From Acidimicrobiaceae bacterium (GTDB lineage Bacteria > Actinomycetota > Acidimicrobiia > Acidimicrobiales > Aldehydirespiratoraceae), in the NCBI GenBank assembly GCA_009843735.1, contig VYCW01000083.1:1-54352 (forward strand): a DNA stretch of 54,352 nucleotides. The letters are read 5' to 3'. Positions 360-31,610 of the stretch are shown here, one piece after another (position 1 is the stretch's first letter; every line of letters starts with the position of its first letter). The position numbers and the translations under genes were made by a program. The notes under the pieces are model-generated. The model was not told the DNA's origin. It did not search any database and worked only from the letters and a program-made list of their open reading frames with translations.

Positions 360-1832
360 CTAGCTGTCGCGACCGGCCATGGGTATGAAGTCCGACACCG
401 CCACCCAGCACGGGCAACCGGCGTCCCACTGGATCGCCCGGTAGTGGTCCACCAGGGAGTGGTCGCCGGGACCGAAGGAGCCGGGGGCGACGCCCGCCGG
501 CGTGAAGTCGCCCGAAGTCTCGAGCGCGGCCACGAAGTTCTCCCTGGTGAGGTCGGCCGCCGCGCCGTGGAGGCCGGCCAGAACGAGAGAGAGCAGGTCG
601 CAGGTCCTCAGGATGCTGGCGAACTCGCCGGACTCGGGGGCACGCCGCTCGATGTCGGTGCCTGAGTACCGCTCGTAATTGGACAGGCACACCTCGGCCT
701 CCTCGTTGACCATGCCGGCCGCGATCTCGCCGGCACGCTTCATGGTCACGGCCATGGCCCCGTCGAACTGCTCGGCCGGCAGAGTCTTCGCCTGCACGTC
801 GGCGGTCTGCTCGCCGTAGTCGGTCGACAGGTAGACGGGGCGGTAGCCCTGGCTCTCGGAGAATCCCAGCACCCCCGCCAGGCTCGAGCCGCCCACCAGC
901 GGGAGCGCCACCTCGACACCGTCGACGATGAACCGCTGGACCGCGATCGGATCTTCGGGGCTCCCGACGCCCTCCCCCGATGTGGCCGTTTCCGAGACGA
1001 TCTCCAGGCCGGCGGCGGCTACCAGCTCGCGCATCGCCTCCACACCCTCGTCGAGGCGGGTCTCGTAGTACATCCCGACGCGGTTGTTGAACAACCCGTT
1101 GTCGATGGCCCACTGGGCGTAGCTGCGCAGGTGCTTGGCGTGGTCGGCCCGCAGCGTGAAGAACCAGGGCGCGCCCCGCTGGTACAGCGAGGGAGGAGCA
1201 CCGTCGGCGTCGATCACCGGGATCTGGAACCGGGTGGCGAGGCACTCGGCCCCGACGGTGAAGCTCACGCTGCTGACCGCGGCGAACACGTCAGAGTCCT
1301 GGGCGAAGGCCGTGCACACACCGAGCTTTGCGGAGTCGCTGATGATGTTGTACTTGCCGAAGACGAGTTCCACGCCAATGCCCGCAGGCAGGAGCCCCTC
1401 GCGTATCCACTGGTCGACCACGGCCAAGGCCTGCGCCTCGGGATCGCCGATGCCGAACTCGGGGTTGAGGACCGCGAAGGCTTCCAGGTCGGGGAAGGCG
1501 ACGCCGATGCGCACGATCCGGGAGGGAACGGTCGTGGCGGGCGGCTCGTCCGTGGCGGTGCCGGTCTCAGCCGGTGCCGCGGTGGTGGCCGGCGCTGCCT
1601 CGGAGGCCGTGTCGGCGGGCGCGTCGTCCGCGGGGGTCTCGTCCGCGGGAGTCTCGGCCTGACCGGGCTCCTCCGGGGGGCTCGTGGTCTCGGTTTCCTG
1701 CTGCTGGGCAGGCTGAGAGGCCGGTTCGGTGACGGGCTCGCTGCTGTCGGAGCCGCAGGCAGCCGCCATCATGGAGAGCACGGCAGCCAGTGGCGCAACC
1801 CGCCACAGGAGTATGCGTGCGGTCTTGCTCAT
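360..1832 (-). CDS. Branched-chain amino acid-type ABC transporter solute-binding lipoprotein
   Basis: This 490-residue lipoprotein is exported and anchored outside the membrane, where it would capture a small solute for a LivHMGF-type importer. Residues 1-26 are a signal peptide ending in the lipobox MAAAC (Cys26). Residues 27 to about 107 are a low-complexity linker rich in Glu, Pro, Thr and Ala. The rest resembles the periplasmic-binding-protein type 1 fold (LivK/Peripla_BP_6), starting near VRIGVAFPD. The ATG start has GAGGAG 7 bases upstream. The nearest permease and ATPase genes are the Liv fusions at 9786-15309, whose locus otherwise has no receptor, so it is probably their partner (inference). 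The ligand cannot be told from sequence. Confidence 0.88.
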   Translation of the reverse strand: MSKTARILLWRVAPLAAVLSMMAAACGSDSSEPVTEPASQPAQQQETETTSPPEEPGQAETPADETPADDAPADTASEAAPATTAAPAETGTATDEPPATTVPSRIVRIGVAFPDLEAFAVLNPEFGIGDPEAQALAVVDQWIREGLLPAGIGVELVFGKYNIISDSAKLGVCTAFAQDSDVFAAVSSVSFTVGAECLATRFQIPVIDADGAPPSLYQRGAPWFFTLRADHAKHLRSYAQWAIDNGLFNNRVGMYYETRLDEGVEAMRELVAAAGLEIVSETATSGEGVGSPEDPIAVQRFIVDGVEVALPLVGGSSLAGVLGFSESQGYRPVYLSTDYGEQTADVQAKTLPAEQFDGAMAVTMKRAGEIAAGMVNEEAEVCLSNYERYSGTDIERRAPESGEFASILRTCDLLSLVLAGLHGAAADLTRENFVAALETSGDFTPAGVAPGSFGPGDHSLVDHYRAIQWDAGCPCWVAVSDFIPMAGRDS

Positions 1833-8053: not shown

Positions 8054-8893
8054 CTATTCGACCCCGCCCACGGTTATTCGGTGGAGGGTGCGCTCGGCGT
8101 CGCCGTAGTCGTGGACCCCGTAGTGCATGGCGCACTGGTTGTCCCAGCAGACGACGTCGCCGGGTTGCCACTGGTGGCGGTAGACGTTGTCGGGGGTCGA
8201 GGACTGGTCGTACAGGAACTGGAGGATGGGGAGGCTCTCGGCCTCGGTGAGGCCCTCGATGGCGACCATCGACTTGCCGGGCCGGTTGAGGTAGAGGGCG
8301 GTCCGGCCCGTTTCTGGATGGACCCGCGCGATCGGGTGGTAGTTGTCCACCGGTTCGCGTTCGGTGGAGGGAAGCGTGTCCGGCCTGCCGTGCATCTTCT
8401 GGACTCGCTTGGGCCGCGAACCCACGAACTTGCCCCGCCGGCCGGCGATGAGCTGCTTCATGCCCTCCGACAGGCGGTCGTAGGCGATGTACTGGTTGGA
8501 GAACATCGTGTCGCCACCGGTCTCGGGAAGGACGTGGGCCAGGGCGACCGACACCGTGGGCGGGGTGGGCATGTGCGACCAGTCGGTGTGCCACGACTCG
8601 GCCGGGGCCTTGGCCTTGCCGAAGTTGGGCACGATGGCGATCTTCGGGTAGCCGTCGAGCGAGTTCTTGGCGTAGTACCAGGGCAGGAAGGGCTCGCCGA
8701 ACACCGCGGCCAGCCGCATGTGGTCGTCCGGGGACAGGAACTGGTCCCGCAGTATGAGCACGCAGTTGTTGAAGAGGGCCGATCGGAGGGCGTCCGCCTC
8801 GGCTTCGGTGATGTCCGTGGTCAGGTCGATGCCGGTGAGGCTCACGCCAACGGAACCCGTGAGCGGCTGCAGGCGGATCGTCTTGTTCGTCAT
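8054..8893 (-). CDS. TauD/TfdA-family Fe(II)/2-oxoglutarate dioxygenase (second copy)
   Basis: This 279-residue paralog of the 1924-2811 dioxygenase shares long stretches such as TEAESLPIL and MHYGVHDYGD. The Fe triad is His102, Asp104 (WHTDWSH) and His257, with the 2-oxoglutarate arginine at Arg272. It would hydroxylate an organic substrate, with succinate and CO2 as co-products. The start ATG overlaps the upstream amidohydrolase stop as ATGA (8890-8893), which implies cotranscription and coupled translation. Two related dioxygenases at both ends of one transport and catabolic locus suggest related substrates or successive steps. The sequence does not reveal whether the substrate is a sulfonate, an aryloxyacid or something else. 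Confidence 0.92.
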   Translation of the reverse strand: MTNKTIRLQPLTGSVGVSLTGIDLTTDITEAEADALRSALFNNCVLILRDQFLSPDDHMRLAAVFGEPFLPWYYAKNSLDGYPKIAIVPNFGKAKAPAESWHTDWSHMPTPPTVSVALAHVLPETGGDTMFSNQYIAYDRLSEGMKQLIAGRRGKFVGSRPKRVQKMHGRPDTLPSTEREPVDNYHPIARVHPETGRTALYLNRPGKSMVAIEGLTEAESLPILQFLYDQSSTPDNVYRHQWQPGDVVCWDNQCAMHYGVHDYGDAERTLHRITVGGVE

Positions 8894-9789
8894 CGGCGGG
8901 AATCGAGGGTATCAAGCACCGGATCATCGAGGCGGTAGACGCGGGCGGCGGTGGCCGAGAACAGGGCCCGGCGCTCGGTGGCGGTCAGCGGCGAAGCGAT
9001 CTCCAGGTAGGCCTCGACGAGCGCGGTGTAGCTGCCGAAGAGGCGGTCGATGGGCCAGTTGGTGCCGAACATGGCCCGATCGGCCCCGAAGCACTCGATG
9101 CAGTGCTCGGCCCATCCTCTGATGCTGTCGACGCTCCAGTCCGGGTCGGCGCCGCTGGCCAGGGCCGAGATCTTCACCACGACATTGGGACGGGACGCCA
9201 CCAGGTGGATGCCGCGCGACCACTCCTTGAAGTAGTCGCGGTCGCGCCGAACGGGCTGGCCGGCGTGACCGAGGATCAACGTTGCGTCGGGGCGGCGGTC
9301 GGCCAGAGCGCAGACGGCGTCGAACTTCGGGTAGGGGACCAGCACCTCCAGGCTCAGCCCGGCGTCGGCTAGGAGGTCGAAGCCCCCGGCGAAGGCGTCG
9401 GTGTCGATGGTCGCAGGTGACAGCATGTCCCGGACGCCGCGCAGCAGCCGGTGGCCGGCGTTGGCCTCGATCACCGACGCGATGTCGGCGTCGGCGGGAT
9501 GGGCCTGCGCGATGATGGCATCGGGAGCCCCCTGCTCGTCGGCCATCGACTGCAGCCAGGCCGTCTCCAGCCCGGGGACCCTCTCCACGCAGGACTGAAT
9601 GTGCACGATCCGGTCCGGAGCGTGGACGCCGGCCTGGACCCGCAGTTCGGCCGCGGTGAACTGCGGGGCGTCCAGGCGGTGCATTCCCTTGAGGCGGGGA
9701 TGCTCGAACTCCGGGTCGAGATAGCGCCAGTGGAGGCCCTCGACCCGGTGGTCCCAGAAATGCACGTGGGTGTCTACGAACTCGGTCAC
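8890..9789 (-). CDS. Amidohydrolase-2 family hydrolase (lactonase/TIM-barrel type)
   Basis: This 299-residue amidohydrolase-2 protein resembles the group that includes fuconolactonase and 2-pyrone-4,6-dicarboxylate lactonase. The N-terminal DTHVHFWD gives the HxH metal motif. LILGHAGQP supplies a barrel histidine, and FGTNWPIDRLFGSY near residue 245 is the typical C-terminal signature. The GTG start overlaps the stop of the transporter fusion upstream (GTGA, 9786-9789), and its own stop overlaps the dioxygenase start, so it is translationally linked on both sides. The amidohydrolase at 19490-20371 is a paralog with the same layout, also directly following a transporter gene. Hydrolysis of an imported lactone or amide is inferred. 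Confidence 0.88.
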   Translation of the reverse strand: MTEFVDTHVHFWDHRVEGLHWRYLDPEFEHPRLKGMHRLDAPQFTAAELRVQAGVHAPDRIVHIQSCVERVPGLETAWLQSMADEQGAPDAIIAQAHPADADIASVIEANAGHRLLRGVRDMLSPATIDTDAFAGGFDLLADAGLSLEVLVPYPKFDAVCALADRRPDATLILGHAGQPVRRDRDYFKEWSRGIHLVASRPNVVVKISALASGADPDWSVDSIRGWAEHCIECFGADRAMFGTNWPIDRLFGSYTALVEAYLEIASPLTATERRALFSATAARVYRLDDPVLDTLDSRR

Positions 9790-12623
9790 GTCGTGCCCCC
9801 TCGCGTCGGTGGGCCGGCGTCGGTCTGGGTGCCCATGTAGGCCTCGATCACCCTGGGATCGGTATCGAGAATCTCGGGCGGGCCCGCTGCGATCTCCTCG
9901 CCGGCCTCGAGCACGTACAGGCGGTCCACCAGCGACCGCATCATGGCCACGTCGTGGTCGATCACCACAAAGGTCATGCCGGCCCGGGACCGCAACTCCG
10001 AGATGACCCGCACGAAGTCGCTGACCTCACGGTGGCTCAGCCCTGCGGTGGGCTCGTCGAGCAGCACGACGTGGGCCCCGAGCGCGGAGGCGCAGGCCAG
10101 CTCGGCCAGGCGCCGGGCGCCGGTCGAGAGGTTGGCGATCTGGGTGTGGGCATGCTCCCGGAGACCGAGGTCGGTGAGCACCCCGAGCGCGATCCGCTTG
10201 CGCTCCCGCTCCTGGCTGCGGGCCCGGGGCGTCCCCAGCAGCGCCGGGCCCAGCCGGGTCGGGTGCTGGCGCTCGAGCGCGAGGCTCACCGCATCCACCA
10301 GCATCATGTCCTCGAACAGCCGGGCCTGCTGGAACGACCGGCCCAGCCCCAGTCGTGCCCGGCGGTGCGCGGGAAGCGAGCTGATGTCACGCCCGTCCAG
10401 CAGCACCTTCCCCGAGTCGGGACGCCGATGGCCGGAGAGAGCGTCGAACAGCGTGGTCTTGCCGGCACCGTTGGGCCCCATCACCCCGACGATCTCATGG
10501 CGCTTCACGCCCATGGACACATCGCGCACCGCATGGACGCCCCCGTAGGACACCGAGATCCCGGAGGCCACCAGTACCTCGATCCGGTCGCCGAGCGGCG
10601 CGTCCGGCCCGCCGGCATGGGCAGCGGCCGCGGCGGGCACTGCTCCGGCCGGTTCCCGGTCGGGCGGGCCGGCTATGTCGCCCGCCGGCAGCAGCCCCCG
10701 GTCGATGGCAGCCTCCACCAGCTTGTCGCGGGTGGCGAACACCAGCGACGCCAGCCCGCCCGGCAGCAGCAGCAGCACCGCCAGCACCCCCATGCCCGAC
10801 GACAGCAGGCCCCAGTCCTCGCCCAGGATCCGGGGGATGCCCTGAACCCAGAAGGCCCCCAGCACCGCCCCGGTGATCGTGGTCACCCCGCCGAAGATCG
10901 TCATCACCACCAGCGACAGCGACTCGCCGGGGCCGAAGGTCCCGCCGATGTCTCCGGAGAACGTCACCAGCAGCCCGCCGTAGAGGAAGCCGCCGAACGA
11001 GGCGATCATCCCCGAGATCACGAAGGCCGACAGCTTCGTTGTTCGCGGCGACACGGCCACGCTCGACGCCGACGGCTCGTTGTCCCTCACCGCCACCATC
11101 CTGCGGCCGAGGCCGCTGAGCCTCAGGCGGTGGACCACGAACATGGTGATCAGCAGAGCGCCCAGGCAGACCCAGTAGTAGCGGATCTCGTGGTTGAAGC
11201 CGACGCCGAAGAAGGTGGGGCGCGGGATCGACATCGACGTGCCCCCGTCGCTGCCTCGATGGTTGAGCCAGTCCTGTTCCAGCAGCCAGCCGCTGGCCGC
11301 CACCGAGAAGGCGAGGGTTATGACGGCCAGGAACAGGCCCCGGATACGCAGCGCGGGCAGCCCGATCAGCAGCGCCACGATCCCGCCGGCGACGGTGGTG
11401 GCCACGATTGCCGGCCCGTGGGGAACGCCCATCTGGTACAGGCGCCCTCCGAGGGCCGCGCCGACGGCCACGAACGCGAACTGCCCCATCGATACCTGGC
11501 CCGCGAAACCGGTCAGCACCACCAGCGACAGGCCCAATACCGCGAACAGCGCGACCGCGCCCATGAAGAACTGCTCCGACGACGTCATGCGGGCCGGCAG
11601 GTAGGCGGCCACGGCCAGCGCGGCCGACAGCAGGGCGATCTTGGTGAATCGAACCCTGAAGTTGGCGGCCAGGGCGGGCTTGAGGGGCACGATGGCGGCG
11701 GCCAGCGTCCAGGAGCTTTGCTCGGAGCCCCGGAGCACCGAGCCCAGCCGCTTCTGCATCAGGAAGCTCCCCGCGATCGCGACCAGCAGCACCAGATCCA
11801 GCGCGCCGCCGATCGGGTAGTTCCACAGCACGAGCGCCTCGAGCACACCGATGGCGATGCCGGCGACGAACACCGACGACAGGCGGGTGAGCCCGCCCAG
11901 CATCGCCGCGGCCAGCGCCTTCAGCATCAGCTGGGGTCCGAGAGCCTGGGACAGAGCCAGGGGCCGGGTCGGTCCTATGAGGATGGCCGACACGCCGGCC
12001 AGCAGCCCTGCTGCGGTCCACACCGCGAACGACACTCTGTCGATCGGGACCCCGGCCAGCCGGGCGGCGTCGGTGTTCTCGGCCGCGGCCCGGCTGGCCT
12101 TGCCCAGCCGACTGCGCCCGAGGAACAGCGCCAGCGCGACGGTCAGGACGGGGACGGCCACCAGTATGGTCAACTGACCGGGGCCGAGGAGGAGCGTGCC
12201 GACGGTGATGCGCCAGTCGAAGGGCGTCGGGTAGATCTTGCCCACGATGTCGCCGCCCTTGGGCAGCAGCGCGCCGCCGAAGAACAGCAGCTGCGAGGCG
12301 CCGATGGTGGCCACCAGCACGGTGAGGCGCGACGCCGAGCGCAGGGGCCGGATCACCAGGAACTCGAACAGCCCGCCGGTGGCCGCGGCCACCAGCAGGG
12401 CGATGACCAGCGCGAGGGCGTAGGGCCACCCGAGATTCAGGGCGAATATCGGGATCATCAGCGCAGCCAGTGCGCCCATCTCGCCGTGGGCGAAGTTGAT
12501 GACCCGCGACGACCGGTAGACGAGGGTGATGCCCAGCCCCAGCAGCGAGTAGGTGAGGCCGGTGATCACACCGAGGATGACGACGTTCTGGGGGACCTCC
12601 CAACCGACGAGGGGCAGAGTCAC
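9786..12623 (-). CDS. LivH-LivM-LivG fusion: ABC importer permeases plus ATPase in one chain
   Basis: This 945-residue protein joins three subunits that are normally separate. Residues 1 to about 292 match LivH (TM segments, VINFAHGEMG). About 325-635 match LivM (LTGFAGQVSMGQ, ALRIRGLFLAV). About 680-930 are a LivG-type ATPase: Walker A GPNGAGKTT with Lys722, signature LSTGARR (832-838), Walker B LLDE with Asp856/Glu857, and switch His890. An Ala/Pro/Gly linker (about 645-680) joins LivM to LivG. It would import a small acid or amino-acid-like solute using a separate LivF and a lipoprotein receptor. The LivF is fused to an MFS protein two genes upstream. It overlaps both neighbours by 4 bases. 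A homologous fusion occupies 24930-27779. Confidence 0.93.
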   Translation of the reverse strand: MTLPLVGWEVPQNVVILGVITGLTYSLLGLGITLVYRSSRVINFAHGEMGALAALMIPIFALNLGWPYALALVIALLVAAATGGLFEFLVIRPLRSASRLTVLVATIGASQLLFFGGALLPKGGDIVGKIYPTPFDWRITVGTLLLGPGQLTILVAVPVLTVALALFLGRSRLGKASRAAAENTDAARLAGVPIDRVSFAVWTAAGLLAGVSAILIGPTRPLALSQALGPQLMLKALAAAMLGGLTRLSSVFVAGIAIGVLEALVLWNYPIGGALDLVLLVAIAGSFLMQKRLGSVLRGSEQSSWTLAAAIVPLKPALAANFRVRFTKIALLSAALAVAAYLPARMTSSEQFFMGAVALFAVLGLSLVVLTGFAGQVSMGQFAFVAVGAALGGRLYQMGVPHGPAIVATTVAGGIVALLIGLPALRIRGLFLAVITLAFSVAASGWLLEQDWLNHRGSDGGTSMSIPRPTFFGVGFNHEIRYYWVCLGALLITMFVVHRLRLSGLGRRMVAVRDNEPSASSVAVSPRTTKLSAFVISGMIASFGGFLYGGLLVTFSGDIGGTFGPGESLSLVVMTIFGGVTTITGAVLGAFWVQGIPRILGEDWGLLSSGMGVLAVLLLLPGGLASLVFATRDKLVEAAIDRGLLPAGDIAGPPDREPAGAVPAAAAAHAGGPDAPLGDRIEVLVASGISVSYGGVHAVRDVSMGVKRHEIVGVMGPNGAGKTTLFDALSGHRRPDSGKVLLDGRDISSLPAHRRARLGLGRSFQQARLFEDMMLVDAVSLALERQHPTRLGPALLGTPRARSQERERKRIALGVLTDLGLREHAHTQIANLSTGARRLAELACASALGAHVVLLDEPTAGLSHREVSDFVRVISELRSRAGMTFVVIDHDVAMMRSLVDRLYVLEAGEEIAAGPPEILDTDPRVIEAYMGTQTDAGPPTRGGTT

Positions 12624-13084
12624 GGGCAGGGGTTCTCCTGCTCGACGAACGCCGCGTACTCGCTGAGCTGCTCATCGAAGTCCTGCCGGCTGATCCCGGT
12701 CAGCACCCCCACGAAGTTGGTGCTGGCCTTGGGGGCCAGCCGGGCGTCGCCCAGGTCGGGCAAGGCAATGGCCTTGGCCAGGTCGAGGCCGTCCCGGTCG
12801 AGGGCGGCCACCCCCACGACCGGGCAGTAGGCGACGTCCTCGGACGTGTTGCGCACCGTCACCTGCACCGTCGCGGTCAGCCCCTCCACCCGGACCCGCG
12901 GCTCGCCCACGTCGAGGACCTCCCGGTCATACACCTGGAGCAGGCCGAGCACCAGTCCCACCACGAATCCGGCCGTGATCACCACGGCGAACAGCACTCG
13001 CCGGGTCCGCTCGTTCCACCATGGTCCCAGCAGCCGCGCCGCCGTCCGGGCGCTCCGTTCCAGCAGGTCCGGCGACGAGGTCAT
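12620..13084 (-). CDS. Small single-pass membrane protein of unknown function in transporter operon
   Basis: I do not recognise this 154-residue protein. It has a basic N-terminus, one hydrophobic helix (about residues 29-50, VLFAVVITAGFVVGLVLGLL), and a C-terminal domain that would face outside, with several beta-strand-like segments (RVRVEGLTATVQVTVRNTSEDVAYCPVVGVAAL). That part resembles immunoglobulin-like FxLYD/DUF-type folds in style only. There are two cysteines, one near the end (NPCP). Its start overlaps the stop of the MFS-LivF gene and its stop overlaps the LivHMG start, each by 4 bases, so it sits inside the transporter. The second transporter locus has no counterpart. It might stabilise the complex or the receptor docking (inference). 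Confidence 0.7.
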   Translation of the reverse strand: MTSSPDLLERSARTAARLLGPWWNERTRRVLFAVVITAGFVVGLVLGLLQVYDREVLDVGEPRVRVEGLTATVQVTVRNTSEDVAYCPVVGVAALDRDGLDLAKAIALPDLGDARLAPKASTNFVGVLTGISRQDFDEQLSEYAAFVEQENPCP

Positions 13085-15309
13085 TGCTGGCCCTCCAGGA
13101 GCCGGCGGGTCAGCTCGTCGGCATCGAGGGCCGCCGCCGGACCCAGTTCGCTCACCCGGCCCCGGTCCATGAAGAACACGGAGTCGGCCACCGACAGCGC
13201 TACCCCGATGGACTGCTCGACCAGCAGGATCGTGGTTCCTAGGGCGGCGATGCGCTCCACCACCTTGAGCAGCTCCGCGGTGACGGTCGGGGCCAGGCCC
13301 AGGCTCAACTCGTCGATCAGCAGCAGTTCCGGCCCGGCCACCAGCGCCCGGCCGAGGGCGACCATCTGCTGCTCACCGCCCGAGAGGGTGCCGGCCCGCT
13401 GATCGAGCCGGCTGCCGAGCGCGGGGAACACGTCGAGCACCTCCTCGAGGCGGCTTCCCACCAGGCTGCTGCTCCCGGCGAACGGGTATGCGCCGAACCA
13501 CAGGTTGTCGCGCACGCTCAGCGATCCGAACATCGACTGCCCCGCGGCCATCAAGGTGATGCCCAGCTTGGCTCGCTGCTCGGGAGGTATGCCGACCAGA
13601 TCCTGGTCCCGGAAGAACATCCGGCCCGACTGGGCGTGCAGCAGCCCGCCGATGTTGGCCAGCAGGGTGGTCTTGCCCACCCCGTTGCGGCCCACCAACG
13701 CATGGCAGCCGCCCTCCGGCAGCGTCATGTCGATGCCGAATAGCACCTGGATCGGCCCGTAGGAGAAGTCCAGGCCCTCGATGTGAAGCAGGGGGTCGCC
13801 TCGGGCGGCGTCCTGGACCTCGCTCCCGGACTCGTCCGCACCGGCCGGATCAGCCTCCGGTCGCGGCCTTGCGGGCGGTGGCGCCTGGACGGCCTTGGCG
13901 GACGCGGCAGGCGGTGCGGCCCCGGTCAGCCCGGCCATGTGCTCGGCGTGCTCCCGGCGCACCATCGCCTGGACGGCCTGCTCGTCGCGCCGGTAGCTGG
14001 CCAGCGCGAAGGTCATCAGGATCAGTCCGGCCAGCGCGGCCAGCGGGATCAGCACCATGTAGGCCGTCCGCAGGTCGCTGGCATCGGCGATTGCGCCGTA
14101 GATCACCGGCGAGGCGGCCGAGGCCAGACTCTGGGTCACCGCGTCCAGCGACGTGCCGCGGCCTCGCAAGTCCGGGTGCAGCACGTCGACCCGGGCCGCG
14201 TTGAGCGGGGGGATCGCAGCCACCAGGAACAGGGCGCCGAATGAGAGCAGGACCAGCATCAGCGGCGTGTAGCCCACCAGGAAGGCGGCGATGAACAGGG
14301 GCGCCGAGATCAGGCGGGCGATGCCGGCCACGCCGATACGGGCCGACGTGTAGCCCGAGTGGGTCAGGAAGTCGGCGAGGTTTCCCGCGGTGAGCACACC
14401 CACGAGGCCGCCCACCGCCACCACGCTCAACGCGGTGGTGGCCTCGGCGATGTCGAGGTCGTGGTAGCGGATCAGGAACGTGGGCGTCCACACGCCGATC
14501 CCGCCGAAGAACAGGCTCCCCACCGCGGACGACACCAGGCTGGCGGTGTAGGAGCGGCACCGCAGTATGTGCCGGTAGGCCTCCACCACCGGGATGCTCT
14601 GGAACCTGGACGGGATGGTCGCCCTCTCGTCGGATTCGAGGCGCTGATGGCGGCGCTCCTGGACGCCGCGCACCGGCTCGGGCAGGCGCCAGCTCAGCAG
14701 GGCCACCACGAAGGCGGGCAGCGCGAAGAAGAAGAAGGTGGCTCGCCAGCCCCAGGCCTGGCCCATTAGCCCCCCGATCGGCAACAGGAAGAAGCCCGTG
14801 AGCTGCCCCATCTGGTAGATGCCCATCACCTTGGAGCGCTGGTTCACCGGGTAGTAGTCGGCCAGCAGCGACTGCGAGGTCGGGTTGTCGCACGGATCCC
14901 AGAGACCGAGCACCATCCGTCCCAGCAGCAGCATGACGAAGCCGCTGGCCATCCCGGTGAAGATCATGGTGACGCCCCAGGCGGCCGTCCCCCAGGCGAT
15001 GATCCTGGTGCGGCTGTAGCGGTCGGCCAGCGCACCGAAGGGCACCGTGCCGAGGGTGACACTGATCAGGTAGGAGCCGCTGAGGATCCCCAGAGCGGTG
15101 TCGGACAGCCCGAACTCACGCTTGAGCAGCGGGAACATGGACGACAGCAGGAACTGGTCGCTCACGTTGATGGTGTAGACGGCCGTCAGCAGCACGAGCG
15201 GCCACTTCCAGACGCCCACCAGCTTGCGGGTGACGTGGAACTTTGGACGCGGGGTGAGCGTCGGCGTCAGGGACGAGATGCGCTCAGTCGCGGCCGGTGT
15301 CAGCACCAT
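13081..15309 (-). CDS. MFS permease fused to LivF-type ABC ATPase
   Basis: This 742-residue chimera has an N-terminal major facilitator domain (about residues 30-440, twelve hydrophobic helices, motif A at 92-100 GALADRYSR). An Ala/Pro-rich linker (about 455-505) follows, then a complete LivF-type ATPase (about 507-742). The ATPase shows Walker A GRNGVGKTT (Lys546), signature LSGGEQQ (642-648), Walker B LLLIDE (Asp666/Glu667) and the LivF-style VEQS in place of a switch histidine. It presumably supplies the LivF half of the importer whose LivHMG half is at 9786-12623. What the MFS half does, import, export or docking, is not known. The ATG at 15309 has GGGAG 8 bases upstream. It heads the long minus-strand operon. 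A homologous fusion is at 27809-30028. Confidence 0.92.
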   Translation of the reverse strand: MVLTPAATERISSLTPTLTPRPKFHVTRKLVGVWKWPLVLLTAVYTINVSDQFLLSSMFPLLKREFGLSDTALGILSGSYLISVTLGTVPFGALADRYSRTRIIAWGTAAWGVTMIFTGMASGFVMLLLGRMVLGLWDPCDNPTSQSLLADYYPVNQRSKVMGIYQMGQLTGFFLLPIGGLMGQAWGWRATFFFFALPAFVVALLSWRLPEPVRGVQERRHQRLESDERATIPSRFQSIPVVEAYRHILRCRSYTASLVSSAVGSLFFGGIGVWTPTFLIRYHDLDIAEATTALSVVAVGGLVGVLTAGNLADFLTHSGYTSARIGVAGIARLISAPLFIAAFLVGYTPLMLVLLSFGALFLVAAIPPLNAARVDVLHPDLRGRGTSLDAVTQSLASAASPVIYGAIADASDLRTAYMVLIPLAALAGLILMTFALASYRRDEQAVQAMVRREHAEHMAGLTGAAPPAASAKAVQAPPPARPRPEADPAGADESGSEVQDAARGDPLLHIEGLDFSYGPIQVLFGIDMTLPEGGCHALVGRNGVGKTTLLANIGGLLHAQSGRMFFRDQDLVGIPPEQRAKLGITLMAAGQSMFGSLSVRDNLWFGAYPFAGSSSLVGSRLEEVLDVFPALGSRLDQRAGTLSGGEQQMVALGRALVAGPELLLIDELSLGLAPTVTAELLKVVERIAALGTTILLVEQSIGVALSVADSVFFMDRGRVSELGPAAALDADELTRRLLEGQQ

Positions 15310-15385
15310 CGTCCGCTCCCGTCCAGGCCCGTTTGCCAGCGCATCCCAAAGCCACAAACAGTATACTAAACTCGCTGTGGGTGAC
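15310..15385. promoter_or_regulatory. Divergent promoter with palindromic AGTATACT
   Basis: This 76-base gap separates the divergent MFS-LivF and ThDP-enzyme genes. A perfect palindrome AGTATACT occupies 15360-15367 and reads as a TATACT -10 hexamer on both strands. On the plus strand it would start transcription near 15374, almost at the ThDP start codon, giving a leaderless or very short leader. On the minus strand it leaves a leader of about 45 bases with GGGAG before the ATG. The palindrome could also be a GntR-type operator, many of which contain GTATAC (family knowledge; no regulator gene is adjacent). Confidence 0.5.
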
Positions 15386-17041
15386 ATGACCGTCGGGGAG
15401 CGCCTACTGGGCCTGGTAGCCGACGTCGACGGTGCGCTCTTCGGTGTTCCCGGCGGGCAGACCCTCCCTCTGTACGCCGCCTCGAGGGGCGCGGACGTCC
15501 GGCACCTGATGGTGCGGGACGAACGCAACGCGGTGACCGCGGCCGACGCCCACGCCCGCCTTACCGGCATCGTGGGCGTCTGCGACGCCACCGTCGGACC
15601 GGGGGCCACCAACCTCGTCTCGGGTCTGGCCGAGGCCCAGGCATCCTCGATCCCGGTGGTGGCGGTGGTGGCCGACACCAGGCGCGACGCCGAGCACCTG
15701 AGGCGCTACTCGGTGGCCTCGCAGTCCTTCGAGCAGTCCGAGACCCTGGCGCCGGTCACCAAGTGGGTCGGGAGGGTCCACGAGCCGGCCGCGCTCGACG
15801 AGGTCGTCGACCAGGCGCTGCGGGTGGCCACGGCCGGCCGCCCCGGGCCGGTGGTGGTGTCGATCCCCGAGGACATCTTCCTGGGTGCGGCCGACGGGTC
15901 CCGGCCCCGGCCCGTCACCGACGCCGACCGCCGGTTTCCCCGGCACCGGCCGCACCCGGAGCCGGAGCTCGTCGAGACCGTCGCCGGGATGATCCGGGAG
16001 GCCGAGCGACCGGTGGTCCTCGCCGGGGGCGGGGTGGTGTTCAGCGGCGCCGCGCCCGCCCTGTCCGATCTGGCTGAGGGATGCTCGCTCCCCGTGGCGA
16101 CCTCGCTCAACGGCAAGGGCGCCATCGACGAGCGCCACCGGCTGTCGGCCGGCGTCGTCGGGGGTTTCGGCTCTCAGCGAGGGAACCTGGTCGTGCAGGC
16201 CGCCGATCTGATCGTCGCGGTCGGCACCAAGCACTCCCAGCTCGGCACCCACGGATGGCGCCTCCCGGCGGCCGGCCAGACCGTCGTGCACGTGGACATC
16301 GACGCCACCGAGATCGGGCGGGCCATTCCCGCCCACATCGGAGTGGTCGCCGACGCACGGTCGTTCCTCATGGCGCTGGCAGAGGTGCTTGAGGCATGGT
16401 CCGGTTCGTCCACCCCATGGATCGACGGCATCCGGCCTGACGAGGATCCTGTCGGCGGTGATGAGGCCGTGCGCCCGGAGGCGGTCGTGGCTGCTCTCGA
16501 CGACCTGCTCGGCCCCGACGACGTGCTGGTGTGCGAGGCGTCGCTGTCGTCGGGATGGGGAGCCCGTTACTTCCGGGTCAAGCGGGCCGGTCCGGGAATG
16601 CTTGCGCCCCGGGGTCTGGCCGGGCTCGGCTGGGCCCCTGGAGCCACGCTGGGGGCACGCGTGGCCCGTCCCGAGGGCAGGGTGGTCGCCCTCACCGGCG
16701 ACGGCGGGTGGGGCTACGGACTCAGCGAGACCGAGACCGCGGTCCGGTACGGGCTCGACCTCACCACGGTGGTGCTCAACAACTCCTCCCTGGCATGGAT
16801 CCGCCATGTGGAGTCCCGCATGAGAATGCCGTACAACACAGACTTCAGCCCCGTCGACTTCGCTGCCACGGCCCGGGCCATGGGGGCTGACGGCCGCCGG
16901 ATCGACCGAGGCCAGTCCATCGCCTCGACCATCTCCGAAGCGCTCGAGACTCCGGGACCCTCGGTGGTCGAAGTCCCGGTCTCACCGGATGCCACCCCGA
17001 TCATCCGTTACGGAACGGTCCGGAGAGCCGCCTATGGCTGA
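15386..17041 (+). CDS. Thiamine-diphosphate-dependent enzyme, acetolactate synthase/oxalyl-CoA decarboxylase-like
   Basis: This 551-residue protein has the three-domain architecture of the acetolactate synthase / benzoylformate decarboxylase superfamily. It would carry out decarboxylation or carboligation of a 2-oxoacid. The ThDP-activating glutamate is Glu46 in RDERNAVTAADAHARLTG. The Mg-ThDP motif runs from GDG (438-440) to NN (465-466). The central segment resembles the FAD/DHS-like domain without a clear FAD motif. The start is ATG 15386 or GTG 15377; neither has a Shine-Dalgarno site, and the promoter suggests a leaderless message. It is the first gene of a plus-strand set followed by SMP-30, MFS and amidohydrolase genes. 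The exact substrate is not resolved by sequence. Confidence 0.85.
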   Translation: MTVGERLLGLVADVDGALFGVPGGQTLPLYAASRGADVRHLMVRDERNAVTAADAHARLTGIVGVCDATVGPGATNLVSGLAEAQASSIPVVAVVADTRRDAEHLRRYSVASQSFEQSETLAPVTKWVGRVHEPAALDEVVDQALRVATAGRPGPVVVSIPEDIFLGAADGSRPRPVTDADRRFPRHRPHPEPELVETVAGMIREAERPVVLAGGGVVFSGAAPALSDLAEGCSLPVATSLNGKGAIDERHRLSAGVVGGFGSQRGNLVVQAADLIVAVGTKHSQLGTHGWRLPAAGQTVVHVDIDATEIGRAIPAHIGVVADARSFLMALAEVLEAWSGSSTPWIDGIRPDEDPVGGDEAVRPEAVVAALDDLLGPDDVLVCEASLSSGWGARYFRVKRAGPGMLAPRGLAGLGWAPGATLGARVARPEGRVVALTGDGGWGYGLSETETAVRYGLDLTTVVLNNSSLAWIRHVESRMRMPYNTDFSPVDFAATARAMGADGRRIDRGQSIASTISEALETPGPSVVEVPVSPDATPIIRYGTVRRAAYG

Positions 17042-23235: not shown

Positions 23236-24930
23236 TCAGCCGCGGCGGATTAGGCGGCCGGGTAGCGCGCCGGTGTGCTCCCCGTCCTCTAGGAGCACCT
23301 CGCCTCCCACGATGGTGGCCGTGATGCCCTCGGCCCGCTGGGTCAGCCTGGTGGCGCCGGCCGGCAGGTCGTGGACGACCTCGGGCACGCACGGCGCCAG
23401 GCGCTCCAAGTCGATGATGTTCAGGTCGGCCTCGAAGCCCTCACGCACCAGACCCCGGTCGGCCATGCCCCAGATGCTCGAAGGCACCAGGGTGATCATG
23501 CGCACCGCCTCCTCGATGGAGAACTCGCCGGCCTCCCGCACCCAGTGGCTGAGCAGGTAGGTCTGAAGCGACGCGCTGATGATCTGGCTCACGTGGGCTC
23601 CCGCGTCTGAGAAGGTCATGATCGTGCGGGGGTGGCGCAGCATCGTCAGCACATCGTCAGGCTCGTCGTTGCTGGTGATCTGCAGGAAGAAGGTGTCGAA
23701 GTCGGATTCCAGGCCCAGATCGATCATGGCTTCTGCCGGGTGTATGCCGCGTTCTGCGGCCACGCTGGCCAACGTGGGGGAGGTGGCCCAGTCGCGCTGC
23801 ATCACCACGATCCGCTCGAACAGCGGCTTGCGGGCCACCTCCTTGCCCAGCGAGAAGTCCATGCCGCTGAGCGACTCGATCAGACCGGCCCGCACGTCCG
23901 GGTCGCGCAGCTTGACGGCCTGCTCGTCGAGGGGCCGGGCCCGCAGCTCGGCCCAGGCCGGCACCTTGTCGAAGGGCAGCCAGGTCTTGAAGTTGAACAG
24001 CGCGCCAGACGGCATGCAGCTGCTCTGGCCCCACATCTGGGCACCGTCGCGGGCCGCGTCGTCGAGGAGCCGCAACAGCTCCAGCCAGCGGTTGGGATCG
24101 CCGAAGGTGGAGATCCCGAAGCTGACCGGCACCCGGTTGCCGACCGCCAGACGGCGCAGCCGGGCCATGGCCTCGGCTCGGCCCTCGGGGTCGGTCGATG
24201 CCATCACCGACTCGTTGGCCAGCTCGAACATTCCGCCTCCGGCCCCCGCCATGGCCGCCACCAGCCGCTCGACCTCGCCCCAGGGCGCCACCCGCGACGC
24301 CACCGGGCGGCCCGAGGGCGTCATGTGGTGGTGGCTCCTGGAGGTGGTGAAGCCGAGGGCGCCGGCGGCCAGCCCGGCCCGCAGTTCTCGCTCCATGGCC
24401 TCCAGGTCCTCTTCGGTCGCCTCCGACTCGAAGGCCCGCTCGCCCATGGCGTACGTCCTCAGAGCCGAATGACCCAGGTAGGAGCCGAAGTTGATCCCCT
24501 TGGGCAGCCGGTCGAGGGCGTCGAGGTACTGGGCGAAGGTCTCCCACTCGAAGTGCACCCCGGCGGCCAGCGCCGCGGCCGGGATGTCCTCGGCCTTCTC
24601 GAGGTTGTCGATCACCAGCTGCTCTTGGCCCGACCGGCACGGGGCCAGGGTGAACCCGCAGTTGCCCACCACCACGGTGGTCACCCCGTGCCAGCACGAG
24701 GACGTGCCGAGCGGATCCCAGAAGAACTGGGCGTCCATGTGGGTGTGGCCGTCGATGAAGCCCGGCGTGACGATGTGGTCGGAGGCGTCGATCTCGCGGC
24801 TGCCGCGGCCCTCCACCGCGCCGACTGCCACGATCTTGCGGCCCGACACCGCCACATCGGCGGGACGGACCGGCATGCCGCTGCCGTCCACAATCGAACC
24901 GTTGCGGACGACCAGGTCGTAGACAGCCAT
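23236..24930 (-). CDS. D-aminoacylase/N-acyl-D-amino-acid deacylase-type amidohydrolase
   Basis: This 564-residue amidohydrolase-3 protein removes an acyl or amide group from N-acylated amino-acid-like compounds, or hydrolyses a cyclic amide. It has the N-terminal beta-sandwich start MAVYDLVVRNGSIVDGSG. His62, His64 and Asp66 lie in PGFIDGHTHMD, Cys92 in GNCGFTLAP is the D-aminoacylase metal cysteine, and LGHSALR (His155) and SDAGAH (Asp443, His447) follow. A C-terminal Rossmann-like tail with NIIDLERL completes the composite domain. Its ATG overlaps the stop of the LivHMG fusion as TGATG (24928-24932), so the imported solute is probably its substrate. An N-acyl amino acid or dihydropyrimidine-like compound fits that context. 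Confidence 0.88.
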   Translation of the reverse strand: MAVYDLVVRNGSIVDGSGMPVRPADVAVSGRKIVAVGAVEGRGSREIDASDHIVTPGFIDGHTHMDAQFFWDPLGTSSCWHGVTTVVVGNCGFTLAPCRSGQEQLVIDNLEKAEDIPAAALAAGVHFEWETFAQYLDALDRLPKGINFGSYLGHSALRTYAMGERAFESEATEEDLEAMERELRAGLAAGALGFTTSRSHHHMTPSGRPVASRVAPWGEVERLVAAMAGAGGGMFELANESVMASTDPEGRAEAMARLRRLAVGNRVPVSFGISTFGDPNRWLELLRLLDDAARDGAQMWGQSSCMPSGALFNFKTWLPFDKVPAWAELRARPLDEQAVKLRDPDVRAGLIESLSGMDFSLGKEVARKPLFERIVVMQRDWATSPTLASVAAERGIHPAEAMIDLGLESDFDTFFLQITSNDEPDDVLTMLRHPRTIMTFSDAGAHVSQIISASLQTYLLSHWVREAGEFSIEEAVRMITLVPSSIWGMADRGLVREGFEADLNIIDLERLAPCVPEVVHDLPAGATRLTQRAEGITATIVGGEVLLEDGEHTGALPGRLIRRG

Positions 24931-27779
24931 CAGGGTCTCCTTTCGGGTTGCGCCGAAGCGTCGCTGCGCAGGATGGCCCGCTCGTCGGTGCCGAGGTAGC
25001 TGTCGATCACCTTAGGGTCGGATCTGACTTCGGCCGGAGCGCCCTCGGAGATGACCTCGCCGGCCTCAAGGCAGTACACGCGGTCGCTTATGGACATGAT
25101 GAGCGGCATGTCGTGCTCGATCACCAGCATCGACACCTCCAACTCGCGCCGCACCTCCACCAGCAGCACCCCGAAGGCCTCGCTCTCGCGCTGGGCTAGG
25201 CCCGCGGTCGGCTCGTCGAGGCAGAGGACCCTGGCGTCGAGGGCCATGAGGTTGGTCAGCTCGACGACGCGGCGGGTGCCGGTCGACAGGTCGACGATGA
25301 ACTCCTCCGCATAGCCGCCGAGTCCGAAGAAGCCGATCAACTCGTCCGCCTCGGCCCGTCGCCGCCGAGCCAGCCGCCGGGCCGCAGGCAGGCCCAGCGC
25401 GGTGCTCACGAAGGGGGTGCGGCCCCGGGCCTCGAGCGCCACCTGAACCGTCTCCCGCACCGTCAGCTCGCCGAACAGCCGGGCGGTCTGGAAGGTGCGG
25501 CCCAGCCCGTGCCGGGCCCGAGCCTCCACGCTCAACCTCGACACGTCGTGGCCGAGCAGCTCGACGGAGCCCCGCGAGCCGACGTGGCCCCCGACCGCGT
25601 TCACGAACGTCGTCTTGCCGGCGCCGTTGGTGCCGATGAGTCCAACGATCTCGCCACTGGTGACGTCGAGGTCGACGCCCGACACCGCTTGGAGCCCGCC
25701 GAAGTTCACCGAGACCTCCCGGGCCCGGAGAACGGCGTCGCCCTCGCTCACTCCCTCCAACGCGGGGTGAGCCCGGTCCCCGCCGGTGACCGGCACGGCC
25801 GCCGGCTTGGCCGCCGGTTCCGGCTCCTCGGGCGGCAGCCGCCGCAGGGCCCAGTCGTACAGCAACTTGCGGGTGGCGTACCCGATCTGCGCGAACCCGC
25901 CCGGGAAGTACATCAGGATGATGAGCAGCCCGACGCTGGAGGTGAACAGGGGCACCAGCTCGTTGTCTCCGAAGAACGCAGGCAGACCGATCACCCACAG
26001 GGCGCCGACGAGCGGTCCGGTCAACGCTCCGAGCCCGCCGATCACGACCATGGCCACCAACTGCAGCGAGTCGTCGATCAGGTAGTAGCGCTCCCCGAAG
26101 GGAATGTTCTGGAACAGGCCGCCCAGCATCGCCCCGCCGAGAGCGGCGATGCCTCCGGCCATCGCGAACGCGGCCAGCTTCGAGCGGCTCGGACTGATGG
26201 TGTAGGCCGAGGCCGCTTCGGGGTTGTCGCGCACCGCGATGGTGGAGCGGCCGATCCCGCTGTTGCGCAGCCGGGCCACCAGCACGAACACCACCACCAG
26301 CACGGCCACACAGAAGTAGTAGTAGGCCCGCTGGCTGCTGACATCCAGGCCGAAGACCGTGCCCCGGCGGAACGACACCGAATTGGCGTTGCCGTCGCTG
26401 AGCACCGGCCAGCGATAGATGTACTGCTCGGCTGCGACCGCGAGCATGAAGGTGATCACGGCTAGCTGCAGTCCCCGCACCCGGAGCGCGCCTAGGCCGA
26501 CCAGCGCGGCCACGCCCGCCATTACCACTGCGGCAACCGCGATGGCAGCCAGGTAGGGGATCGGTGGAGCCTGGAAGTCGAGCAGCCAGACATCCATCTC
26601 GAAGCCCCGGTTGAGCGCGGCGGCCAGCAGGGCCCCCAGGCCGGCGAAGGCCATCTGGGCCAGCGACAGCTGTCCGGCCCAGCCGGTGATGACGGTGAGC
26701 GACAGGGCGCAGATCGCGTAGCAGGCGATGGAGGCGTAGAGCAGGTGGCGGCTGGGCCGGGTCACCACGATGGGCAGCAGCACTGCAGCCACCATGATCA
26801 GCGTCGCGGTCAGATGCGGCATCCTGCGGATCCACCAGATCTCCTGAGCCCGCTCGGGTGGGCGGCGTGCCTTCGGCGCGAAGGCGAACGTGGTGTCGTC
26901 CGGGCTCGAGCGGCTCTGCTGGTAGACGATGGCCACCACCAGCACCAGCGCGGCGAAGTCGAACAGTCCGGGCTCGGTCAGGAGGTTGAACCTGAGCACC
27001 GCTTCGCCCACCCCGATAAGCGCACCGAATGCCACCGCCCGGGCGAACGACCGCTGGCCGGCCAGCACGAACGCGAGCATCGCTCGGGCCATGGTCAGCA
27101 TCCCGAGGTTGTCCAGGCCGGCCGGGTTCCCGATCTGGGCCGACAGGAGCATGATCGAGACGGTGGACAGGAGTCCGGCGATGGTCCACACGAAGGTCGA
27201 GACCATCTTGGGGTTGACGGTGGACAGCCGGGACAGCGGCGGATTATCGGCCGAGGCCTCCACGGCGCGGCCGAACGTGGTGCGCCGCAGCAGCCACGCC
27301 AGGCCGACCGCGGCTGCGGGCACGATGATCAGGATGCTGAGCTGCGGTCCGGTGATCCGTAACCCGAGGACATCGTCGAACACCCCGGACAGCGCGGTGG
27401 GGTACTTGTTGCCCCTCATGTTGAGGTCGGGGTAGGAGCCGCTGATCCCGGAAGCGAGCTGGGCCACGCCCACCGTGGCCATCAGCACTATCACCCTCGG
27501 CGAGCTGAACAGCCGGCGCACCACCAACAGGTCGACGACGGCGCCGAACAGGGTGCCGGTGGCCAGGCTCAGCGCCAGCGCCAGCCAGAACGGGAAGTGG
27601 TAGTTGAGCACCAGGAGCGCCAGCAGCGAGGCGCCTACCAGGCCCATGTTGCCGACGGCCAGGTTCACCACCCGGGTGGACCGGTACACCAGGACCAGGC
27701 CCATGGCCAGCAGCCCGGTGACCAGCCCGTTGACCAGCCCGTTGAACACCAACTGCGATGTGAGCCAGGCGGCAAGCAT
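24930..27779 (-). CDS. LivH-LivM-LivG fusion: ABC importer permeases plus ATPase (second copy)
   Basis: This 949-residue homolog of the 9786-12623 fusion has LivH at about 1-290 (AVGNMGLVGA, SYPDLN), LivM at about 320-640 (ITGWAGQLSLAQ, ALRVRGLQLAVITF) and a LivG ATPase at about 680-935. The ATPase shows Walker A GTNGAGKTT (Lys722), signature LSTGTRR (831-837), Walker B LCLDE (Asp855/Glu856) and His889. The linker at about 648-680 is rich in Pro/Ala/Glu. The ATG at 27779 has GGAG 8 bases upstream. It lies 29 bases after the MFS-LivF gene and overlaps the D-aminoacylase start. The lipoprotein receptor at 30021-31514 completes the importer. The two fusions differ most in LivH and in the periplasm-facing loops, which suggests different solutes. 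Confidence 0.93.
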   Translation of the reverse strand: MLAAWLTSQLVFNGLVNGLVTGLLAMGLVLVYRSTRVVNLAVGNMGLVGASLLALLVLNYHFPFWLALALSLATGTLFGAVVDLLVVRRLFSSPRVIVLMATVGVAQLASGISGSYPDLNMRGNKYPTALSGVFDDVLGLRITGPQLSILIIVPAAAVGLAWLLRRTTFGRAVEASADNPPLSRLSTVNPKMVSTFVWTIAGLLSTVSIMLLSAQIGNPAGLDNLGMLTMARAMLAFVLAGQRSFARAVAFGALIGVGEAVLRFNLLTEPGLFDFAALVLVVAIVYQQSRSSPDDTTFAFAPKARRPPERAQEIWWIRRMPHLTATLIMVAAVLLPIVVTRPSRHLLYASIACYAICALSLTVITGWAGQLSLAQMAFAGLGALLAAALNRGFEMDVWLLDFQAPPIPYLAAIAVAAVVMAGVAALVGLGALRVRGLQLAVITFMLAVAAEQYIYRWPVLSDGNANSVSFRRGTVFGLDVSSQRAYYYFCVAVLVVVFVLVARLRNSGIGRSTIAVRDNPEAASAYTISPSRSKLAAFAMAGGIAALGGAMLGGLFQNIPFGERYYLIDDSLQLVAMVVIGGLGALTGPLVGALWVIGLPAFFGDNELVPLFTSSVGLLIILMYFPGGFAQIGYATRKLLYDWALRRLPPEEPEPAAKPAAVPVTGGDRAHPALEGVSEGDAVLRAREVSVNFGGLQAVSGVDLDVTSGEIVGLIGTNGAGKTTFVNAVGGHVGSRGSVELLGHDVSRLSVEARARHGLGRTFQTARLFGELTVRETVQVALEARGRTPFVSTALGLPAARRLARRRRAEADELIGFFGLGGYAEEFIVDLSTGTRRVVELTNLMALDARVLCLDEPTAGLAQRESEAFGVLLVEVRRELEVSMLVIEHDMPLIMSISDRVYCLEAGEVISEGAPAEVRSDPKVIDSYLGTDERAILRSDASAQPERRP

Positions 27780-27808
27780 CCCTGCGTCTCCGCTCGGTCC
27801 TGCTCGGT

Positions 27809-30028: not shown

Positions 30029-31514
30029 TGTCGACGAAGTCGCCCGCTACGAAGTCTCCCAGCTCGGAGTCCCAGTGGAAGAGGGTTACGACGTCGTTGG
30101 CGTCCCACTTGTCGGCGCCCAGCGACGCGAACGGCAGCTCGGCGATCTCGTAGGAGCCCACCTGGGCCAGTGCAGCCGCGAAGCTCTCCGTAGTCAGGTC
30201 GGGCCCGGCCAGCTCGGCGATCCTGGCGAAGGTGCCGACCTGCTGGCACGAGCGGACGATGCGCTGGAGATTGTCCAGATCGTCCTCTCCCGGGTAGAAG
30301 ACGGCCTGCTCGTCGGGATGGTTCTGGTTCCAGCGGTCGACGCAGGCCACTGTGGGTCCGTGGCCCTGTTCGTAGATCAGCTCCACGGACGGCACCGCCA
30401 CCACCATGGTCCTCGCGATCTCGGCCTCGGTGGCGCCCGAGTCGAACCTCGACGCCGAGAGGACGGTCGTCCGGTTGGTGGCCCAGTCGGCCTCGAATCC
30501 GGCCCGGTTGGCGGCGGCCAGCGGGCGGTCGAGTCCGGCGGTGTCGAACACGAAGTCGATCCCGTCGGCGATCCAGCGCTGGATGATGATGTCCAGCTCG
30601 GCGGCGTCGGCGGCCTCGTCCTCGGTCGGCACGGCTGTGACCGTGGTCGAGGCCACGTCGTAGCCGAGGCCGGCCAGAGCCGAGACGATCAGCTCGTTGC
30701 GGGCGTCGGAGTTGCCCAGCACCGCGATGGTCTTGCCGTCCAGCGCCCCGGTGGCCGCGACGGTGGTCGCCAGCGCGCCGTCCATGCGCTCGGGTAGGGC
30801 GTTGCTGGTGATGATGGGCAGCACGGAGCGATCGGTCACCTGGCTGGTGATGTCGGACAGGTAGCCGACGAACGGGGTGTCGTTGATCTCCGCGTAGCAC
30901 AGCGCCGAGTCGGAGGGCCGAACGAAGCCGATGGCGGCGAAGATCTGCTCGTCCTGGGTGAGCTTCACGCACGACTCGTCGTAGGCGGTCGGGCTCAGCG
31001 GGTTGACGAGCTCGAAGACCGGCTCGATGAGGCGGCCGTTGACGCCGCCGGCCTCGTTGATGGCGTCGATGGCCTCCTGGTACTGGGCCACGTTGTCGCC
31101 CCAGTTGAGCAGGACGTTGGCCACCTCGAACAGCAGGTCCTTGTCGATCAACAGCACGCCGACCTTGATCGAGTCCTCGGTCACGCCCCGGTAGCTGGCC
31201 GTCAACGCAGGTGGTTCGGGTTCGGGCTCAGGTTCCTCGGCGGCCTCTTCGGGTTCGGGCTCGGCTTCCTCGGCGGGCGCTTCGGGCTCTTCAGCCGGTG
31301 CCTCGGGTTCGGGTTCGGGCTCCTCGGCGGGCGCCTCGGGCTCTTCAGCCGGTGCCTCGGGCTCAGGATCGGGATCGACTGCGGGCGCGGCCGCCTCAGG
31401 TTGGCTTGCCGGCTCCTCATCATCGTCGCCGCAGGCGGCCGCGACGATGGCGAAGGCCAACATGATGGCCACCCACCTCCAGATCCGTCTGCGATGCGCT
31501 CTCGACTCCCCCAT
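30021..31514 (-). CDS. Branched-chain amino acid-type ABC transporter solute-binding lipoprotein (second locus)
   Basis: This 497-residue receptor has a signal peptide with lipobox VAAAC (Cys28), then a strongly acidic low-complexity linker of EPEAPAEEP repeats to about residue 105. A type 1 periplasmic binding domain follows (SIKVGVLLIDKDLLFEVANVLLN onward, ending SELGDFVAGDF). ATG 31514 is chosen because GGGAGGAG lies just upstream; ATG 31526 lacks a site. It is the first gene of a four-gene minus-strand transport operon (receptor, MFS-LivF, LivHMG, D-aminoacylase). The linker resembles those of the two lipoproteins at the left of the window and may span the cell wall. Ligand unknown. Confidence 0.9.
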   Translation of the reverse strand: MGESRAHRRRIWRWVAIMLAFAIVAAACGDDDEEPASQPEAAAPAVDPDPEPEAPAEEPEAPAEEPEPEPEAPAEEPEAPAEEAEPEPEEAAEEPEPEPEPPALTASYRGVTEDSIKVGVLLIDKDLLFEVANVLLNWGDNVAQYQEAIDAINEAGGVNGRLIEPVFELVNPLSPTAYDESCVKLTQDEQIFAAIGFVRPSDSALCYAEINDTPFVGYLSDITSQVTDRSVLPIITSNALPERMDGALATTVAATGALDGKTIAVLGNSDARNELIVSALAGLGYDVASTTVTAVPTEDEAADAAELDIIIQRWIADGIDFVFDTAGLDRPLAAANRAGFEADWATNRTTVLSASRFDSGATEAEIARTMVVAVPSVELIYEQGHGPTVACVDRWNQNHPDEQAVFYPGEDDLDNLQRIVRSCQQVGTFARIAELAGPDLTTESFAAALAQVGSYEIAELPFASLGADKWDANDVVTLFHWDSELGDFVAGDFVDIG

Positions 31515-31610
31515 GTCTCCTCCCATCCATGTGAGTCGGTGGGCGGGATTCGCCCACAGATTCCGTGGATCGGAGAATTTAGCACACTGTTTTCTGGCCC
31601 ACCGATTCGC

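Follow-up and report, generated by a model that had tools for sequence, protein, structure and literature searches.

We analysed a window of 54,352 nucleotides, from contig VYCW01000083.1 (assembly GCA_009843735.1) of an Acidimicrobiaceae bacterium, in which one gene encodes both a major facilitator superfamily (MFS) carrier and an ATPase of the LivF/UrtE type. Between positions 15309 and 13081 of the minus strand, a single stop-free frame of 742 aa comprises the MFS carrier, a linker and the ATPase. An initial annotation of the sequence had placed an MFS permease running without a stop into a LivF ATPase at these coordinates; they are correct, the gene reads on the minus strand, and the fusion is real, since the same frame is open in same-genus relatives. 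The gene, its parts and a putative upstream signal are as follows.

13081..15309, minus strand: MFS-LivF fusion protein, 742 aa (ATG at 15309, TGA ending at 13081)
13984..15219, minus strand: MFS part, residues 31–442, spinster/ACS-like (domain match, motif A, alignment with structural relatives)
13795..13983, minus strand: linker, residues 443–505, 63 aa, Pro/Ala-rich and fast evolving (ratio of nonsynonymous to synonymous substitution rates, dN/dS, 0.36–0.76)
13084..13794, minus strand: LivF/UrtE-type ATPase, residues 506–742 (domain matches and ATPase motifs)
15360..15387, minus strand: promoter-like site, 50 bases 5' of the fusion start codon (consensus match only)

In Pfam, MFS_1 (E = 4.9e-49) and ABC_tran (E = 1e-22, residues 525–667) match the fusion above their curated cut-offs. 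The NCBIfam models UrtE (5.3e-54) and LivF (3.2e-45) match residues 507–736, both under their curated equivalog cut-offs, and we therefore name this half LivF/UrtE-type rather than certified LivF. Of the complete LivF initially proposed, the completeness thus stands and the exact identity is not certified; the domain has Walker A (with K546), an LSGGE signature, the Walker B motif IDE and a Gln in the H-loop (VEQS). The twelve helices proposed for the MFS half are compatible with, though not proved by, its alignment-averaged hydropathy, which resolves 10 blocks, two of which (29 and 48 residues) could hold two helices each. The frame stays open upstream as far as a GTG at 15678; codon-position GC of this 5' extension (0.53/0.76/0.82) is unlike that of the MFS part (0.63/0.49/0.95), and the ATG at 15309 is preceded, at a distance of 6 bases, by a GGGAG resembling a Shine-Dalgarno sequence. 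The search upstream of the fusion found one promoter-like site versus 0.3 expected.

The fusion recurs in related genomes. Four of 15 other genomes of the genus carry fusions that are 85–96% identical, with the same frame open and the same downstream genes. A profile of eight fusions matched 123 of the 298 genomes of the window's order (own genome included) at 1e-120 or better, and 96 of 226 when only better assemblies were counted; this threshold was adopted because LivF-only rows had reached 1.6e-107 with another model, and at the looser level of 1e-90, where part of the matches may be LivF alone, the count was 154 of 298. Among the order matches listed (down to 6e-163) the alignment spans both halves, and copy numbers from this survey are lower bounds, at most three candidates having been scored per genome. 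Phylum-wide, the 1e-110 level was reached by 19 of 396 genomes, of which 12 belong to the window's order (own included), one to the same class outside that order and six to other classes. A single genome matched among 251 from the phylum of a Chloroflexi locus, with three copies, and none among 299 from the phylum of a Bradyrhizobium locus, a search with no positive control in that phylum. When named genomes were scanned, nine of the best 80 loci matched both halves (six Acidimicrobiia, one Actinomycetota, one Frankiaceae and one metagenome-assembled genome of Actinomycetes), and one of the 1256 records that matched in a plasmid collection reaches a query coverage of at least 80%. The complete replicon of Embleya sp. 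NBC_00888 (NZ_CP108785.1, fusion at 4149190–4151385) holds the whole set of MFS-LivF, LivHMG and solute-binding protein (SBP); its fusion, in a stretch of the record that has no annotation, is 54% identical over 98% to a second MFS-LivF protein of our window. In total, 114 distinct fusion proteins were gathered. Recurrence across genomes of the order and phylum rules out a one-off event, and the case that the initial annotation had treated as single belongs to a widespread family with three gene layouts, which also has importer relatives without an MFS. Across the homologues the linker holds no stop or frameshift, the same frame being open, and the two parts are not always separate genes.

Downstream of the fusion lie four genes that, judged by their spacing, look like one tightly packed operon with it.

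12620..13084, minus strand: D154, 154 aa, one N-terminal hydrophobic stretch (DUF4307 similarity below cut-off, E 0.0036)
9786..12623, minus strand: LivH-LivM-LivG fusion (LivHMG), 945 aa (Pfam, NCBIfam and start overlap with D154)
11739..12623, minus strand: LivH-type permease part (BPD_transp_2; bounds set by us)
10659..11633, minus strand: LivM-type permease part (BPD_transp_2; bounds set by us)
9789..10583, minus strand: LivG-type ATPase part (LSTG signature, His in the H-loop, IDHD)
8890..9789, minus strand: Amidohydro_2 hydrolase (4-base overlap with the LivHMG gene; kept after LivHMG in loci L023–L026)
8054..8893, minus strand: TauD/TfdA-type dioxygenase (4-base overlap with the hydrolase gene; kept in L023–L026)

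The start of D154 overlaps the fusion stop (ATGA) and its stop overlaps the LivHMG start (GTGA). BPD_transp_2 matches two stretches of the LivHMG chain, so that both permease parts, LivH and LivM, are present; the LivG part scores under the NCBIfam equivalog cut-off, and Walker A and B are intact in both the LivF- and the LivG-type ATPase of the target. Among the loci examined, homologues of D154 occur only beside target-type fusions (L023–L026, L066, L076 and copies). A BNR/sortilin-like beta-propeller frame (6402–8030, same strand) lies downstream of the TauD gene.

The partner genes of the family are constant. We took a census of the 64 of 114 distinct fusions with more than 3.5 kb on both sides (56 after removal of near-copies), a cluster being defined as genes on the same strand in steps of up to 1.5 kb. 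LivH, LivM and LivG all lie in the cluster of 62 of the 64 fusions, and the other two have LivH and LivM. Each cluster has a single LivF, always the fused one (64/64), and a second, free LivF was found in none of them. The tie to an ATP-driven importer suggested by the initial annotation is thus borne out at the level of gene neighborhood. LivG is part of the same chain as the fusion in 23 of 64 cases, and an SBP match is present at 34 of the 64 loci. Three layouts occur, namely MFS-LivF with LivHMG, MFS-LivF with LivHM and LivG, and LivHM with MFS-LivF-LivG, and the MFS-LivF link is common to all of them. Among 70 control loci with an unfused LivF (mostly from other phyla and not matched), 66 hold LivH or LivM, one has any MFS-model match (34 bits) and none is fused. 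Furthermore, across 46 type-F systems MFS distances track LivH/LivM distances (Spearman 0.71, with 0 of 500 permutations as high). At locus L068 (9650–12511) the LivH-LivM-LivG chain is split within LivM into two frames, reflecting a frameshift, a sequencing error or a true split.

The motifs of the two ATPases are complementary. We compared alignment columns across 78 systems. The SGG signature is present in all 78 fused LivF domains, with Gln in the H-loop in 77 and the Walker A Lys in 77, and LivG has Thr in place of the first Gly of the signature in all 78 and His in the H-loop in 77/77, with one gap. Such LivF/LivG asymmetry is usual in Liv systems. The single all-canonical site combines Walker A, Walker B and His of LivG with the LivF signature. 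Since a pair of LivF domains would have no canonical site and a LivG-LivF pair has one, the working partner of the fused LivF is very likely the neighboring LivG, which LivF should need, and this pairing would place the MFS beside the importer.

The best solved relatives of the MFS half by sequence are 6e8j (E 1.3e-48), SPNS1, a D-galactonate transporter and SPNS2; the NCBIfam models that score best with it, below their cut-offs, describe organic-anion carriers. We take 6e8j to be HnSpns, the Hyphomonas spinster, whose numbering in PMC9440201 the chain fits. The target has motif A (D96/R97/R100), and its D51, R131, D138 and D151 align with Asp41, Arg122, Glu129 and Asp142 of 6e8j, D138 replacing Glu129 acid for acid; the place of Arg42 is taken by Gln52. 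PMC9440201 describes the four HnSpns residues as proton switches, salt-bridge partner and motif-A relay. An acid in transmembrane helix 1 (TM1) is conserved among 44 of 46 type-F and all 43 type-FG proteins; for the TM4 Arg the type-FG count is 41 of 43. Judged by these residues, the MFS half resembles a functional carrier.

Both halves are under purifying selection and the linker is much looser, as expected of two selected domains on a loose tether. In four same-genus pairs, dN/dS is 0.06–0.13 for the MFS, 0.11–0.18 for LivF and 0.36–0.76 for the linker; a fifth, distant pair (L066), with dS over 1, gives 0.19, 0.16 and 0.36, respectively. The idea of a LivF fused to a decayed MFS is ruled out by the purifying selection on the MFS half. 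Between the domain matches, the gap has a median of 6 residues in 112 type-F rows and 18 in 60 type-FG rows, copies included.

Importer relatives without an MFS include L028 (7132–12663, LivF alone with LivHMG and an SBP), L027, L107 and L221 (LivHM with LivF-LivG) and L222, where LivH-LivM-LivF-LivG form one 1256-aa frame (5709–9479) with no MFS in the chain. Locus L261, which we count in favour of the two-carrier complex proposed below, encodes a single-chain LivH-M-F-G and, 3.1 kb away on the other strand, a standalone MFS. We also built a quick tree of 181 LivF domains, where one clade (94 by the SH-like approximate likelihood ratio test) unites the 95 fused domains with three that are MFS-free; the MFS-free LivF of L028 groups with the target subtype (support 80), and the MFS-LivF-LivG type forms one group (support 80). 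The MFS tree scatters nine standalone relatives (6 changes), requires 5 changes for the MFS-LivF-LivG type and, given this scatter, does not support a single origin of the MFS partner. Because MFS-free and standalone relatives both occur, the MFS is a module, missing from some relatives and separate in others; its gain and its loss are not separable from these trees.

We consider it reasonably likely that these proteins form a two-carrier membrane complex, in which an H+-coupled MFS is docked through LivF to a Liv-type ATP-binding cassette (ABC) importer, and that MFS and importer probably work as one machine. The LivF part would pair with the LivG part of the neighboring LivH-LivM-LivG chain, which would complete a Liv/HAAT-type importer from two polypeptides, plus an SBP. 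As LivF is the C-terminal domain of the MFS carrier, the carrier would be permanently docked at the importer's side, and the LivF/LivG pair would spend ATP for the ABC route. The MFS most likely retains H+-coupled transport, its solute being the organic acid or amide that the importer takes up or one chemically close to it; it may add a low-affinity path to the high-affinity ABC path, or serve as an outlet for a product of the neighboring hydrolase and dioxygenase. What the sequences establish is the fusion itself, its constant partner genes with one LivF per cluster, the complementary ATPase motifs and the selection on both halves; the physical complex, transport by the MFS and its substrate and direction are our inference.

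Several observations weigh against the docked two-carrier complex. The fast drift of the linker means that no rigid coupling runs through it in the target subtype, and the existence of MFS-free relatives means that the importer can do without its MFS. Conversely, standalone MFS relatives occur with no Liv genes in the stretch examined (L258, L259, L264, L267, L268 and L275), and at L076 the fusion and D154 have no LivH, LivM or LivG in the 3.2 kb to the contig end, a locus outside the 64 owing to its short flank. The target operon has no adjoining SBP; the closest candidate on its strand lies about 8 kb downstream of LivHMG. Within the MFS half, only 31 of 46 type-F proteins have the TM4 Arg, the place of Glu129 is mostly Lys, Arg or Gln in the wider family, and in the L066 pair the dN/dS of the MFS exceeds that of LivF. 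Operon co-inheritance alone would give part of the distance correlation, and the fusions were gathered with fusion profiles, the annotation models being built from those same fusions.

A stronger coupling than docking can be imagined, in which the MFS and ABC parts are mechanically linked via the shared LivF, ATP hydrolysis at the LivG/LivF site gating the proton-driven carrier, or the carrier's state gating the ABC cycle, with obligatory exchange or co-transport. We regard such a dual-energized transporter as unlikely; if true, it would do something that neither family does alone.

We give a low probability to the idea that the MFS transports nothing and serves as a membrane anchor or assembly scaffold that keeps LivF near LivHMG. 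The MFS-LivF link is the common element of all layouts, 15 of 46 type-F proteins have a residue other than Arg at the TM4 position, and motif A and other loops, on the presumed cytoplasmic side, hold many of the best-conserved MFS residues (D96, R97, R100, D151, R158, P212, R382 and D442). However, these residues are kept in 7 to 9 of the 9 standalone MFS relatives and hence are not specific to the fusion, the MFS half changes more slowly than LivF in four of five pairs, and the target retains the proton-switch residues of a studied carrier. Nor do LivF and LivG of ordinary Liv systems need an anchor, and the family has MFS-free members. To a fusion that merely secures equal amounts and common targeting, with an independent MFS linked to the importer only through shared substrates, we assign a similarly low probability. 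Such an arrangement would suit the fast, Pro/Ala-rich and variable linker of the target subtype and the co-occurrence, within single genomes (e.g., G027 and G037), of importers lacking an MFS and standalone MFS relatives, but the inter-domain gap is short in most fusions, and a fused ATPase obliged to sit under LivH/LivM would bring its MFS close.

It is very improbable that the MFS itself is driven or gated by the LivF domain: Walker A, signature and Walker B of LivF are intact and the L076 fusion has no LivHMG close by, yet the Gln for His in the H-loop (77/78) would leave a LivF pair without a canonical site, and all 64 clusters have LivH and LivM adjacent. An assembly or annotation artefact merging two genes, conceivable in a draft of 140 contigs, has a negligible probability and is refuted by the homologues, namely the same frame in 4 of 15 same-genus genomes, the 114 distinct fusions and the one in the complete Embleya replicon.

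The genome has two further, diverged MFS-LivF genes, one in the window (30028–27809) and one on contig C43, and both adjoin a LivHMG gene of their own. The copy in the window belongs to a second complete operon (31526–23236, minus strand) of SBP, MFS-LivF, LivHMG and Amidohydro_3 genes, listed here with the candidate SBP for the target operon.

30021..31526, minus strand: SBP of the second operon (Peripla_BP_6, 33.3 bits versus a cut-off of 31.7)
27809..30028, minus strand: second MFS-LivF fusion, 739 aa, short linker
24930..27812, minus strand: LivH-LivM-LivG partner of the second fusion (start approximate)
23236..24930, minus strand: Amidohydro_3 hydrolase, end of the second operon
360..1832, minus strand: candidate SBP, 490-aa frame (similarity to the window SBP; no Pfam match)

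The 360..1832 frame scores 58 bits against the window SBP with a single-sequence model, and 350 with an iterated model that possibly contains the frame itself; it is a possible binding protein for the target importer. At other loci with D154, an SBP match lies 0.5 kb after D154 (L076) or 2.7 kb beyond LivHMG (L066).

Compared with Liv/HAAT importers (LivFGHMK and UrtABCDE), the target has the same LivH and LivM permease parts and LivG and LivF ATPases, and the fusion family shares the binding-protein match (34/64 loci) and the LivF/LivG motif asymmetry. Unlike in those importers, LivF is not a free soluble subunit but the C-terminal domain of an MFS carrier, LivH, LivM and LivG form one chain or LivG is joined to MFS-LivF, and the target's LivF, UrtE and LivG scores fall under the NCBIfam equivalog cut-offs; the Peripla_BP_6-type SBP accompanies the second window operon and none adjoins the target, whose candidate has no Pfam match. 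Liv systems with fused subunits likewise join Liv proteins in one chain (LivM-LivG-LivF chains make up 3 of 75 unfused LivF matches), but without an MFS. With spinster (Spns) and ACS carriers such as DgoT, the target shares MFS_1 above the gathering score, motif A, the TM1 acid and the TM4 Arg; it differs in its C-terminal ATPase domain, and most of its family in a basic residue or Gln at the place of Glu129. LplT-type MFS carriers are joined to acyltransferase/AMP-ligase domains and thus also combine an MFS with a soluble domain, whereas the target carries a subunit of a second transporter as its extra domain. Both halves come from known families; in the open-licence literature we found neither an account of an MFS fused with a Liv ATPase nor one of the breadth and fixed partner of this architecture.

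Primary (ATP-driven) and secondary (ion-gradient-driven) transport are treated as separate machines. For annotation, proteins of this family may carry the name of one half, hiding the importer or the carrier. The fusion family, present in 123 of 298 genomes of the order and on the Embleya replicon, would offer a direct system for testing the coupling of ATP and ion gradients in one complex.

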